Below, piece by piece: positions 45,384 to 49,752 of a stretch of 64,000 nucleotides of DNA. The notes below the pieces were generated by a model. The model was given only the letters and a program-made list of their open reading frames with translations. It ran no database searches and was not told the DNA's origin. A program made the position numbers and the translations under genes. The stretch is from Hoeflea marina (GTDB lineage Bacteria > Pseudomonadota > Alphaproteobacteria > Rhizobiales > Rhizobiaceae), in contig NZ_QGTR01000001.1 of assembly GCF_003182275.1 (NCBI RefSeq), positions 1,160,215 to 1,224,214 on the forward strand, read 5' to 3'. The number at the start of each line of letters is the position of its first letter. Position 1 is the stretch's first letter.

Positions 45384-46364
45384 TCAGTTGTAGGTGATGG
45401 TCACCACCACGGTGTCGCTGTACTGGCCCGGTGCAGCCGCCTGCGGCGCGACACGGCCGTAGACCGGGAGCGCCTGTTCCGATCCCGCGCCGGTGCCGGT
45501 AACCTGGGTGCCGCCATCCATTCCCCAGGGCATGGTGAAGGCGGCATCGGAATAGAGCCCGTAGATGATGGTGTCGCTGCCCGATTGCATCAGCCGCTGC
45601 TCCGGGTCGGCGACCCCGCCGAGGCCACCGCCCATGGTGACATGGTAGTTCGTGCCTGGCGTGCAGGTCACGTTGATGCTGCCGCTGGCGGTCACGTCGC
45701 TGTCGATGATGCCGTGCAGACCGAAATCGATGTCCTCCACCTCGATGAGGCAATTTGCATCCACGCTCGCCGTCACGCTGAAGCTTGCCTGGGTCAGGGT
45801 TCCGGTGGCGGGTGCGGCGCAATCAAGCGTACTGCCCTCGGCATAATAGAAGGCCGCGCCGGCACCCGTGAAGGTTGACAGATAGCTGCCTGTCGCCGCG
45901 CCGACCTGGCCGGCCGAGACGCTTCCGTACAGCGTCACCTCGCCGCTTGCCGTACCGCTGGAGGCCGACAGCTGGATTGTCTTGGGCTGGCCCAGCGTCG
46001 TGTCGTCGAACGATCCCCAGGAGGCGCCGCGGCCGCTGTCGCCGAACAGCTGGTAGTCGAGTGAATTGCCACCCGAAACGAGGCGCCGGATGCTGCCATT
46101 GGCGCCGCCGCTGCCGGCGCCCAGATTGCCGCAGACGGTCACAACCGTTGCGGACTCGGTCACGCCGTCGCAGCTGATGGCCACCTGGGCGCTGCCCTCG
46201 GAGGACAGACCCGCCAGGGTATCGACAGCGCCGAAATTCATGTCGTCGATGCTGGCGGTGCAGCTGGCTGCCGCCGCCACCGTGATGCTGGCAGCCAGCG
46301 CGGCGGCCGCAAGGATGGCGCGGAGCGCGAGGCTCGGCGGGAGACTATGGCTGGCATATGGCAT
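45384..46364 (-). CDS. Spore-coat-U (SCPU) two-domain pilus tip adhesin, CsuE-like
   Basis: This 326-aa protein has a signal peptide (hydrophobic stretch about 17-33) and two SCPU/PF05229 domains, each with the pattern C...FG...V...C and a closing beta strand; the second ends TVVVTITYN. In archaic chaperone-usher systems (Csu, sigma-type) the two-domain subunit is the tip adhesin and one-domain subunits form the rod. ATG at 46364 overlaps the usher end by 20 bases. It is the last gene of the pilus operon. Confidence 0.85.
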   Translation of the reverse strand: MPYASHSLPPSLALRAILAAAALAASITVAAAASCTASIDDMNFGAVDTLAGLSSEGSAQVAISCDGVTESATVVTVCGNLGAGSGGANGSIRRLVSGGNSLDYQLFGDSGRGASWGSFDDTTLGQPKTIQLSASSGTASGEVTLYGSVSAGQVGAATGSYLSTFTGAGAAFYYAEGSTLDCAAPATGTLTQASFSVTASVDANCLIEVEDIDFGLHGIIDSDVTASGSINVTCTPGTNYHVTMGGGLGGVADPEQRLMQSGSDTIIYGLYSDAAFTMPWGMDGGTQVTGTGAGSEQALPVYGRVAPQAAAPGQYSDTVVVTITYN

Positions 46365-48780
46365 CGGAAATACTCACTGGCTTGCCCGGCTGGGCGATGT
46401 AGTTGAACGCTGCGACACAGGTCGTGCCATCCTGGAGTTCCAACGTGACACGGTTGGTCGCCTGCAGGTTCTCGACGAGGGCCTGGCCGTCATAGCCGAC
46501 CACAAAGGGCTCCGCGTCCGCCGCGATCCGGCCGATCGCCCCCATCTCGACGGCGGACCCGTCCGGCCTGGTGAAGGCAACAAGGGCGGCGGCGGCATCG
46601 GTGTCGACATCGAACTTCACCACGATGCCGGACCGGTCGGCCGGCATGACGACATCCCGGGTGTTGTTGACCACTGCGTCGAGCGGCAGGTCGGTCGGAT
46701 CGATGGAGATGCGGTTGCGCTGGTAGGAGCGCAGCCGCGGCAGCAGGAGCTTCCCGTTGCGGTCCGTCACGCCAGCGGGGCGGTTTTCGTACTGCACATC
46801 CACACCGGGCGCCCCGGCGTCGACGATGGCGAAGGCGTCGCCGATCCGGTTGGAGAAGAACACCCCACCACCCGCGGCTATCACCGCGCCGTCAAGCCTG
46901 AGGCTCGCCTGGGTGCCGGTCTCGCGCTGGGCGGCACGGCCGGTGATGTTGCCGACCGAGGTGCGGTAGCTCGCCGAAGCCTGCGTCACCGAACTGTCTG
47001 ACTGCTGGCGGGCCACGCTCCATCCGTAGTCGCCGATCTTCTGGCCCTGCGAGCGGGTGAGCCGCTCGGTGATGGCATAGTCTCCCTCCTGGTAGGCGGC
47101 CGCAGTGGCGGACGTCGTGTCGGCTCCGATCGGGATCACCAGGCTTGCATAGACACCGACGTTTCCTGCCTCCAGGTCCTTGAGTGCCGACACCGAGAAC
47201 GAACTGCCGCCGAAGACCGGCCGGTTGTAGGATACGCCGACAATCCGGGTGTGGTCTCCCTCCGTTGTCTCGAGATGCGTGTAGCTGAAATTGAGGTTGG
47301 AGCTGTCGAACGCCAGCGGCACCGAGACAGCGACCTGCTCCAGCGCCCGGGGCGGATCGGCGGACATCGAAAACAGACCGGTCTCGATGTCGACATCCGC
47401 CGCCGTCACCGAGGCGATGTCCTGGTAATGGCCGAAACTGCGCTGCACCCGCGCCGAAAGGTGCAGGCCCAGAAGGTCCCTCTTCAGCGAGGCGACCAGC
47501 TGGTGGCCGCGCTCGCCGGAGCTGTAGCTGCCCGCGGCCGACACGGACACGACGCCCAGCACGGGGGCCGCGATCACCACCCCGCCACCGCCGTTGATGA
47601 GATCGGCGCCACCCTCCGCATGAGCCTCCAGCGTCAGCCGGTTGGTGATGCCCGTACGGAAGGTGGCCGAGCCATAGGGGCGGCGATCGTAGACATTGGA
47701 CTCAACGCCGTAGCCGATCCGCGCGAAGCCCACCTCGGCGGAGAAGTCCATCAGGCCCGGGGACAACAGCTGGTTGGAGGTGATGAAGCTGCTTTCGCTC
47801 ACCACCTCCTGGCCCTGCGCATCCGTGACGACGATACGCGCATTGCCGGCGCCGTCGACGATCGGCAGGTTGGTAATTTCGAAAGGTCCCGCATCAACCG
47901 GGCTCGTGAAGCGGCGCGCATTGTTGAGATAGACCTCGACCGTCGAGGGCACGGCGGCGCTGCCCGACAGGCCCGGCACCGGGAAGGTGACCAGGTCGGA
48001 GCGCAGCGCGAAGTTCCGTTGGATCTGGAAGCCGCCGAGCCGGGTCGACCGCGTCCACGACAGTCCGCCGGTGATGATGTCGCCTGCGCTGTAGCTCAAC
48101 ATCCGCGACTGGTCCGAATAGCGCCAGGTGGTCTCCAGCCGCGTGTTGTCGAAATAGACATTGTCGGAGGTGCTGGCGATGAAGGATGTGGCGAGCACGC
48201 CCAACGGACCGAAGGCGCGAGCCTCGAAGGCGCCGCTGAGCCCGGAAAAGTCGAAGCGCCCGCCGTCGTTGGAATTGTCCATGGCGCCGACCAGCGAATA
48301 ATTCAGCAGTGCGCCGTAGGAAGACTGCGCCTGCTCTGGCTCCGGCTTCTTGCCGCCGCCGCGCCGCAGCCTGGCGTCGATGATGCGGGGCGCCTGCTGT
48401 GCATCATCGGCCGTGAACGCGATGCTCTGGTTGAGTTCGTCAAAGACGAAGCGCACGCCGGGCAGCAGGTCGATCCGGATGCGCCCGTCCGGCAGCGTCG
48501 CCACGGCGACCGGCAGGATGCCGACATTGCGTAGCTGGTCGGCTTCGATCGTCAGCGTGCCGTCGGCGTCCTGGTGAAAGGCCGCCACCAGTTCCGTGTC
48601 CCTGCCGTTCACCGACACGACCAGGAACAGGTCGCGGCCGACGGCCGGACCGGCGCTTGCCTGGCTGTCAGGCAGATCGCGATCCGGAGACACGTCCCCG
48701 GATCGCGCCATCGCCGCGGCGGGCAGGCACATCAGTGCCAACCCGGCAACGGCCAGCCTCAGGCCGGTGGAGCTCGTCAC
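46345..48780 (-). CDS. Outer-membrane usher of an archaic chaperone-usher pilus
   Basis: This 811-aa usher has a signal peptide (GLRLAVAGLALMCLPAAAMA, cut after about residue 26), N-terminal domain, 24-strand barrel with plug, and C-terminal domains that include DRNGKLLLPRLRSYQRNR and VSISDAICQP. It exports and assembles subunits. It starts at GTG 48780, 6 bases after the chaperone stop. Length fits the archaic usher class. Confidence 0.92.
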   Translation of the reverse strand: MTSSTGLRLAVAGLALMCLPAAAMARSGDVSPDRDLPDSQASAGPAVGRDLFLVVSVNGRDTELVAAFHQDADGTLTIEADQLRNVGILPVAVATLPDGRIRIDLLPGVRFVFDELNQSIAFTADDAQQAPRIIDARLRRGGGKKPEPEQAQSSYGALLNYSLVGAMDNSNDGGRFDFSGLSGAFEARAFGPLGVLATSFIASTSDNVYFDNTRLETTWRYSDQSRMLSYSAGDIITGGLSWTRSTRLGGFQIQRNFALRSDLVTFPVPGLSGSAAVPSTVEVYLNNARRFTSPVDAGPFEITNLPIVDGAGNARIVVTDAQGQEVVSESSFITSNQLLSPGLMDFSAEVGFARIGYGVESNVYDRRPYGSATFRTGITNRLTLEAHAEGGADLINGGGGVVIAAPVLGVVSVSAAGSYSSGERGHQLVASLKRDLLGLHLSARVQRSFGHYQDIASVTAADVDIETGLFSMSADPPRALEQVAVSVPLAFDSSNLNFSYTHLETTEGDHTRIVGVSYNRPVFGGSSFSVSALKDLEAGNVGVYASLVIPIGADTTSATAAAYQEGDYAITERLTRSQGQKIGDYGWSVARQQSDSSVTQASASYRTSVGNITGRAAQRETGTQASLRLDGAVIAAGGGVFFSNRIGDAFAIVDAGAPGVDVQYENRPAGVTDRNGKLLLPRLRSYQRNRISIDPTDLPLDAVVNNTRDVVMPADRSGIVVKFDVDTDAAAALVAFTRPDGSAVEMGAIGRIAADAEPFVVGYDGQALVENLQATNRVTLELQDGTTCVAAFNYIAQPGKPVSISDAICQP

Positions 48781-48786
48781 CTCGGC

Positions 48787-49215
48787 CTATTCGGTAAAGC
48801 GGACGGGTATCGAATGACGGACCAGCACCTTGACCTGCCCCGGCACGCGCTTGCTGGCATCCGGGAGCTCGTCGATGAGCAACCGGTAGGCCTCCGTGCC
48901 GGAAACCGGCTTCTTGCTGACGCGGACAACCCGGATGACATTCTCGGACCCGGGCGCGAGCTTGGTGATCGGCGGGCTGGCCACCACATCGGTCGTGGGC
49001 TCAAGGCGATCCTTGCCGTTCACCTTGGTCCAGCGGAACACCCGCACCTGGACATTGGTCGCGGTCCGGTCCTCGTTCCAGAGCCTGACGGTGGAAGCCG
49101 AAGCCCCCATCTTCAGGTCCAGGGTGATCGGCGAAACCCGCAGGGAGGCAGCCTGTGCTGCCCCCGCAATCAGGCAGGCGGCGAGGCTCGCAGCGATAAG
49201 GCGCGTGAAGGTCAT
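48787..49215 (-). CDS. Pilus periplasmic chaperone, N-terminal domain only
   Basis: This 142-aa protein has a signal peptide and one PapD-like immunoglobulin domain (ASLRVSPITLDLKMGASAS, then RLWNEDRTATNVQVRVF, LEPTTDVVASPP and VIRVVRV). Family members are about 230-240 aa with two domains. Here the frame stops just after HSIPVRF, where domain 1 normally ends, and the usher begins 6 bases on. The second domain, which normally completes the L-shaped chaperone, is absent from the sequence. Confidence 0.82.
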   Translation of the reverse strand: MTFTRLIAASLAACLIAGAAQAASLRVSPITLDLKMGASASTVRLWNEDRTATNVQVRVFRWTKVNGKDRLEPTTDVVASPPITKLAPGSENVIRVVRVSKKPVSGTEAYRLLIDELPDASKRVPGQVKVLVRHSIPVRFTE

Positions 49216-49239: not shown

Positions 49240-49752
49240 TTAAAGGCTTGTGCCGTAGGTGATCGTGGCAACCACGGTGTCTTCGTAGGTGCCCGTTGGG
49301 ACATTCTGCCCGCCATCGACCCGGCCGTAGACCGGGATGATTTCATCTACGCCTGTGGCCACCGATGCGGCGGGAGTGTCGACGCCGGCTTCACTGCCCC
49401 ATACGACAGTGCGCAAATCGTCCTGATAGAGCGAATAGGTGGCAAAATCGGCAGTGGTCGTGTTGGTCAGTTCGCGCGCAGCCGTGGTCGCAGTGGCGCC
49501 AAGGCCGTCTCCGAAGGAAATCACATAATCCGAACCTGCGGTGCATTGAACGGTGACGCTGGTATCCACGTCAATATCGGCATCGACGATGCCGACCGTG
49601 CCGAAAGGAAGCGCCTCGGCAGCGATCGTGCATTCGGCCGCAACCGTCATGGATACGGCCATATTGTCGGTTGCCGTCTGCGCGAAGACTGAAGTCGCAG
49701 AAAGAATTGTTGCAGCCGAGAGAACTGTAGAGGCAATGAAATACTTCATCAT
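49240..49752 (-). CDS. Spore-coat-U (SCPU) domain pilus major subunit
   Basis: This 170-aa protein has a signal peptide (cut after SATSVFA) and one SCPU domain: CTIAAEALPFG, VQCTAGSDYVISFGDGL, VYGRVDGGQNVPTGTYEDT and a final strand VVATITYG. It resembles the CsuA/B-type rod subunit and is first in the operon, the usual place for a major subunit. ATG at 49752 has AAGGA before it; the second ATG at 49749 is also possible. Confidence 0.87.
   Translation of the reverse strand: MMKYFIASTVLSAATILSATSVFAQTATDNMAVSMTVAAECTIAAEALPFGTVGIVDADIDVDTSVTVQCTAGSDYVISFGDGLGATATTAARELTNTTTADFATYSLYQDDLRTVVWGSEAGVDTPAASVATGVDEIIPVYGRVDGGQNVPTGTYEDTVVATITYGTSL

Follow-up and report, generated by a model that had tools for sequence, protein, structure and literature searches.

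The 142-residue chaperone encoded in an archaic, Csu-like pilus operon of Hoeflea marina consists of a single immunoglobulin-like domain. We consider it probable that the operon represents a form in which the second domain (D2) of the chaperone has been stably lost and in which the remaining domain (D1) serves the pilus subunits by donor-strand complementation, without the carboxylate anchor that two domains build together. This reading is based on sequence: the anatomy of the operon, the conservation of the short chaperone in 14 systems, their grouping by one loss, the purifying selection acting on them, the lack of a convincing D2 in the 10 one-domain genomes searched, and corresponding changes in D1 and the subunit C-termini. 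From these we infer production of pili and a chaperone that functions unaided, through donor-strand complementation. In descriptions of chaperone-usher pathways the chaperone has two domains and grips the C-terminus of the subunit in its cleft.

The operon and its chaperone

The stretch of DNA analysed here (the window) comprises 64,000 nt of Hoeflea marina GCF_003182275.1 (NZ_QGTR01000001.1, positions 1,160,215-1,224,214, forward strand). On its minus strand lie four adjacent genes in the order SCPU rod, chaperone, usher and two-domain SCPU tip, all with open frames. In window coordinates the features are as follows.

49240..49752 (-), SCPU rod subunit, 170 aa; PF05229, E 2e-32
48787..49215 (-), one-domain archaic-type periplasmic chaperone, 142 aa; PF00345 only, residues 26-138
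48895..48897 (-), chaperone codon Thr107; Glu in the two-domain relatives and CsuC (PapD mature Glu83), from the PapD alignment
48883..48885 (-), chaperone codon Arg111, equivalent of CsuC Arg89, the subunit carboxylate anchor of D1, from the CsuC alignment
48796..48840 (-), region of the G1 donor strand, codons 126-140 of the chaperone, from the alignment to CsuC
48787..48789 (-), TAG stop directly after domain 1, from the open frame
46345..48780 (-), outer-membrane usher, 811 aa, GTG start at 48780; PF00577, E 7e-37
45384..46364 (-), two-domain SCPU tip subunit, 326 aa; PF05229 in two stretches

The matches to PF05229, PF00345 and PF00577 and the order of the genes agree with the earlier note on this DNA, which had read the locus as a four-gene archaic Csu-like operon of rod, chaperone, usher and two-domain tip. 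SCPU pilins that carry a donor segment at the N-terminus (recognised by visual inspection) are combined with an usher and a chaperone in one operon, which is the composition that marks the archaic chaperone-usher pathway. A second usher family, PF13953, matched slightly below its cut-off of 27 (26.2 bits, E 7e-6).

The N-terminus of the chaperone resembles a signal peptide on inspection of the sequence. The C-terminus reads ...VRHSIPVRFTE and is followed by TAG, with the GTG of the usher 6 nt downstream. PapD_N (PF00345) covers residues 26-138 (E 9.9e-16, 58.3 bits, cut-off 23) and no second Pfam family exceeded its cut-off in the chaperone. The closest solved structure is CsuC, and the match is confined to CsuC domain 1 (E 7.8e-14). 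V128, V130, V132 and H134 align with the CsuC donor residues V110, F112, M114 and Y116 (named as such in PMC4654587), so that the protein ends immediately past the G1 donor strand of D1. Frame, Pfam and CsuC alignment thus confirm what had been proposed earlier, namely a stop after D1, a missing second Ig domain and an usher that begins only 6 nt further on.

Measured against known chaperones, the protein has the PapD_N domain with a donor strand that is typical of PapD-like members (PF00345, and the strand from the CsuC alignment) and lacks their arrangement of two Ig-like domains, being 142 aa long with PapD_N only. It possesses the arginine in D1 that marks archaic chaperones (CsuC Arg89) and the superfamily-invariant proline (Pro59); R111, P81 and P82 are each found in 14 of the 14 one-domain systems described below. 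The archaic D2 residues Tyr196 and Arg174 are absent, there being no D2 in the chaperone and none in its own genome at E<=1, and the conserved glutamate of PapD-like chaperones (PapD Glu83) is replaced by Thr107. With the Csu pilus of Acinetobacter baumannii (CsuC, PDB 5d6h) the system has in common the similarity in D1, the donor strand, the invariant Pro59 and the Arg89 equivalent, as well as an usher and a two-domain tip. It differs from it in that CsuC continues into a D2 with Tyr196 and Arg174, whereas the window chaperone ends before D2, and in that Csu has adaptor subunits (CsuA and CsuB) with no counterpart in the four-gene operon. The classical chaperones PapD and FimC would share the PapD_N domain and the donor-strand principle with it, but they have two domains and anchor the carboxylate by two basic residues of D1 (PMC4654587).

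Conservation and descent of the one-domain form

Relatives were taken from public genome contigs (18 loci), from genomes of the family (46 of 394) and from later searches. The earlier note had counted a 142-aa chaperone shared by all close relatives with functional pili as a refutation; the nearest relatives do share a chaperone of 141-145 aa, and this turns the suspected defect into a conserved variant. Counting the window, 14 systems have such a chaperone, ending no more than about 5 residues from the same V-x-F, and in all 14 the order rod-chaperone-usher-tip is maintained and all four genes are open. Besides the window they comprise Rhizobium sp. Leaf306 (L002), Rhizobiales bacterium AFS087364 (L003) and eleven genomes of the window's family (G342, G1433, G1469, G287, G234, G036, G037, G066, G333, G181 and G397); all or nearly all are Rhizobiaceae. 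The spacing between chaperone and usher is -50 to +34 nt in 12 of these systems and +8 in the other two.

The earlier note had also suggested a check of whether related species keep the C-terminal domain. D2 is kept in 36 systems, with chaperones of 232-243 aa, and lost in the 14. The two-domain systems come from other Rhizobiaceae, Phyllobacterium, Mesorhizobium and Bradyrhizobium and are otherwise similar: the 12 placed in alignment A2 are 46-53% identical to the window chaperone, rod, chaperone and usher are collinear, the tip lies downstream in 34/36, and the usher is of similar length in 35/36 (one is split). They differ from the window system in possessing D2, in subunits that end at Tyr or Phe and in the conservation of Q64, E107 and F139. 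Two rows were dropped before these counts, L097 (the same stretch of record as L122) and L124 (a broken two-domain chaperone); L124 was retained as a two-domain row in the trees and in the comparison of lost columns. The split usher belongs to a two-domain operon on the Sinorhizobium meliloti plasmid pMl3 (L098:5120-7566), where it is annotated as two adjacent pieces, a hypothetical protein and an usher; it was left out of the usher tree.

A scan of the family gave matches in 46 of 394 genomes, and 10 of these 46, our own included, contain the one-domain form (30 of the 53 match rows were inspected directly and the other 23 judged solely by open frames of at least 235 aa). In the order, 33 of 397 genomes matched. 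The 30 outside the family have open frames of at least 217 aa, the shortest being that of G770, i.e. the broken L124, and judged by open frame there is no clean member of the one-domain clade among them. Scans of the class (32/385) and the phylum (53/299), judged by open frame alone, yielded frames below 190 aa only in the window, in G795, in G1129 and in G1363, where the match is in two pieces and one of them is this short. Within the genus of H. marina PapD_N was matched in 1 of 18 genomes; two of those without a match are less than 80% complete. Its absence from 17 of the 18 makes the system look accessory. In genus g107 the one-domain and two-domain versions are both present, in different species.

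The short proteins of G795 and G1129, which are distant genomes of the same class, look like possible separate single-domain cases. In G795 a 172-aa PapD_N-only chaperone above the cut-off (L100:3063-3581) is flanked on one side by a DUF4402 subunit and on the other by a usher-like protein of 922 aa, which we took for the usher and which has no Pfam usher match. In G1129 a 157-aa protein (L101:2729-3202), whose PapD_N score of 20.2 lies below the cut-off of 23, has pilin-like genes on one side and a CS1-type (TcfC/CooC_C) usher on the other. No kin of either was found in the other genomes of their orders, where they are the only match of 17 and of 6, respectively. These two cases suggest that reduction to one domain may have happened more than once.

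In a phylogenetic tree based on D1 (51 rows) the 14 one-domain chaperones formed one clade with a support of 97/90. The same clade was recovered in usher trees of 50 rows (86/95) and 34 rows (96/94). In the 50-row usher tree it is bordered by 13 systems of its own family that have two domains and by the long-branched L132, from another family of the order. From this placement D2 was most likely lost once; the grouping needs a single event. The ushers within the clade are deeply diverged, the longest end branch of the 50-row tree amounting to 1.04 changes per site. The dN/dS of the chaperone in three one-domain pairs was 0.117, 0.160 and 0.267, the ratio for the window and L050 being only rough because of a high chaperone dS of 1.24. 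Compared with the other three genes, the chaperone had the lowest value in two pairs; in L054/L055 the usher was slightly lower (0.234). By these branch lengths and ratios the one-domain form is old and under purifying selection.

Subunit C-termini and residues of domain 1

In CsuC the C-terminal carboxylate of the subunit is held by Arg89 of D1 and Tyr196 of D2, aided by Arg174 of D2 (PMC4654587). The exchanges Arg89Ala and Tyr196Phe lowered the recovery of subunit equally, and recovery with the double mutant was near zero (PMC4654587). When domain 2 is absent this anchor cannot be complete, and the tails of the subunits look freed in line with this. In the two-domain systems all 35 rods and all 33 tips scored (of 36 systems) end exactly at a conserved aromatic residue, Tyr or Phe. 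The L122 tip and the L011 rod had been left out for altered or cut tails, and the L004 and L009 tips for want of a collinear tip. The C-terminal ends of the L122 tip (L122:8019-8864, genome G1424) and the L011 rod depart from the family and are possibly frameshifted. Among the one-domain systems, the tip continues past the conserved aromatic in 13/14, by 1-6 residues (a single residue in nine cases), and the rod in 6/14, by 4-11 residues; 8/14 rods and 1/14 tips still end there. The window rod has 4 additional residues (GTSL) after the conserved terminal Tyr and the window tip has one. Fisher values of 1e-10 for tips and 2e-4 for rods were computed ignoring shared ancestry and overstate independence, because the loss of D2 is one event. 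On the usher tree one tail change is required for tips and two for rods.

Changes within D1 were identified from columns conserved in at least 90% of 37 two-domain rows (L124 included), of which there are 32 in D1 and 126 in the usher. The one-domain clade has lost five of the 32, namely A36, P37, Q64, E107 and F139; they were selected by this criterion before being interpreted. Q64 occurs in 36/36 two-domain and 0/14 one-domain chaperones, E107 in 36/36 and 1/14, and F139 in 35/36 and 0/14. Q64 is probably located in the C1-D1 hairpin, which reaches towards domain 2 and closes the cleft (PMC4654587). E107 aligns with CsuC Glu85 and with residue 104 of the PapD precursor, which is mature Glu83 (the numbering offset of 21 residues was taken from the chains of 239 and 218 aa). 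According to PMC4133393, this glutamate is conserved in all chaperone families and braces the anchor residues, including CfaA Arg154; the latter corresponds to CsuC Arg174 in domain 2. F139 occupies the last position but one in the shared block of D1, directly before domain 2 starts.

Other conserved positions are unaltered. Arg111 is retained in 14/14 one-domain and 36/36 two-domain chaperones, and Pro81/82, Tyr110, Asp115, Pro118 and Arg133 are likewise unchanged in all 14. Three of the 14 have Ala at the position matching CsuC Ser117, a bonding partner of Arg89. On the D2 side a GL.GY.L motif, whose Tyr aligns with CsuC Tyr196, was present in 36/36 two-domain chaperones. The usher was also scanned for a compensating change; only 3 of its 126 conserved columns are lost in the one-domain clade versus 5 of 32 in D1, so there is no obvious remodelling of the usher.

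Probable subunit handling by a single domain

In the mechanism we favour, the G1 strand of the single domain would capture each SCPU subunit by donor-strand complementation, and Arg111, the equivalent of Arg89, would still contact the end of the last strand of the subunit (strand F). The complex would then be passed to the N-terminal domain of the usher. The Csu model, which draws on classical systems, has the incoming complex recruited to this domain, and in classical systems the domain interacts mainly with the chaperone (PMC9452303). The two-domain anchor (Arg89 of D1 with Tyr196/Arg174 of D2) would be gone together with the domain hinge, and the C-termini of the subunits would be freed from the requirement to end at the cleft. 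Energy storage by reorientation of the domains has been proposed for non-classical chaperones (PMC4654587, Discussion); with the hinge missing it could not operate here in that form. From the effects of Tyr196Phe and Arg89Ala in CsuC (PMC4654587) a chaperone devoid of D2 should bind weakly unless compensated. The loss of E107 should also cost binding, since in CfaA a change of the glutamate matching PapD Glu83 weakened the stabilisation of subunits (PMC4133393).

As the main rival explanation, the chaperone might act as a homodimer (or as a larger oligomer), with another copy of D1 replacing domain 2 around the subunit. Oligomeric capping is known for other pilus chaperones. Some positions on the D2 side have not been emptied: Phe at position 139 has become mostly Arg (8/14) and Pro at position 37 mostly Gly (12/14). 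In addition, the mean net charge of D1 is 7.2 in one-domain versus 3.0 in two-domain chaperones. However, positions 64 and 107 are highly variable and position 139 is mixed within the clade, which resembles a released constraint more than a new interface, and we regard an oligomer as doubtful.

That a separate protein encoded elsewhere provides the second domain or its anchoring residues was another option in the earlier note, and it now seems quite unlikely. It would make sense in view of CsuC, where D2 gives two anchor residues and the combined change of Tyr196 and Arg89 nearly abolishes recovery (PMC4654587). Yet a D2 profile built from 16 relatives, which detected D2 in 5/5 two-domain control genomes at E<=4.4e-34, found nothing convincing in the 10 of 14 one-domain genomes searched (that of the window included). 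Seven gave no match, among them H. marina itself at E<=1, and three gave short, weak partial matches, the best of which (E 0.0013) lies in a frame of 720 aa that is interrupted by a stop. A partner with no homology to D2 would lie outside the reach of such a profile. PapD_C (PF02753) was also absent from the H. marina genome, which alone is a weak test because this Pfam model may miss archaic D2 domains. The search of the same genome for another chaperone, as recommended earlier, returned a single PapD_N match, that of the window. In the flanks of the operons (2.1-5.4 kb upstream and 1.4-4.5 kb downstream) no gene family is common to more than 3 of the 14 systems.

The same note had considered a dead pilus, and decay of the chaperone gene might be suspected from the PapD_N match in just one of the 18 genomes of the genus. 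We judge this to be very improbable, as 14 systems share the endpoint at 141-145 aa with all four genes open and chaperone dN/dS is 0.12-0.27. The broken-looking chaperone of L124 differs from them: its stop is preceded by a remnant of D2 and followed by the usher only after about 210 nt. It is a two-domain chaperone interrupted inside domain 2 (L124:4643-5116, G770), with the appearance of genuine decay or of a faulty assembly. A sequencing or assembly error concealing an intact D2, which the earlier note had named as a possible refutation, has a negligible probability, because D2 would not fit into the 6 nt that separate stop and usher in the window and because 13 other genomes have the same endpoint, with short chaperone-usher spacing throughout the one-domain systems. 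Among the options raised at the outset it is therefore the minimal chaperone that is favoured by sequence.

On balance we think that these operons belong to a lineage which assembles pili via a chaperone of one Ig domain and has abandoned the carboxylate anchor, so that D2 and interdomain motion would be dispensable and the C-termini of the subunits could evolve freely. No report of a one-domain usher chaperone was recognised in the open-licence PMC literature, covered mostly at the level of titles and the beginnings of abstracts. For archaic chaperones a precise positioning of D2 has been proposed to be necessary, with movement between the domains storing energy and driving the release of subunits (PMC4654587, Discussion). 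A natural lineage devoid of D2 makes this proposal directly testable, and the anchor model can be checked in evolution against the linked change in the C-termini of the subunits. At about 120 mature residues, the protein would be a minimal chaperone useful for structural and engineering work. More generally, a helper protein of about half the usual size may reveal which part of the machinery is truly essential.
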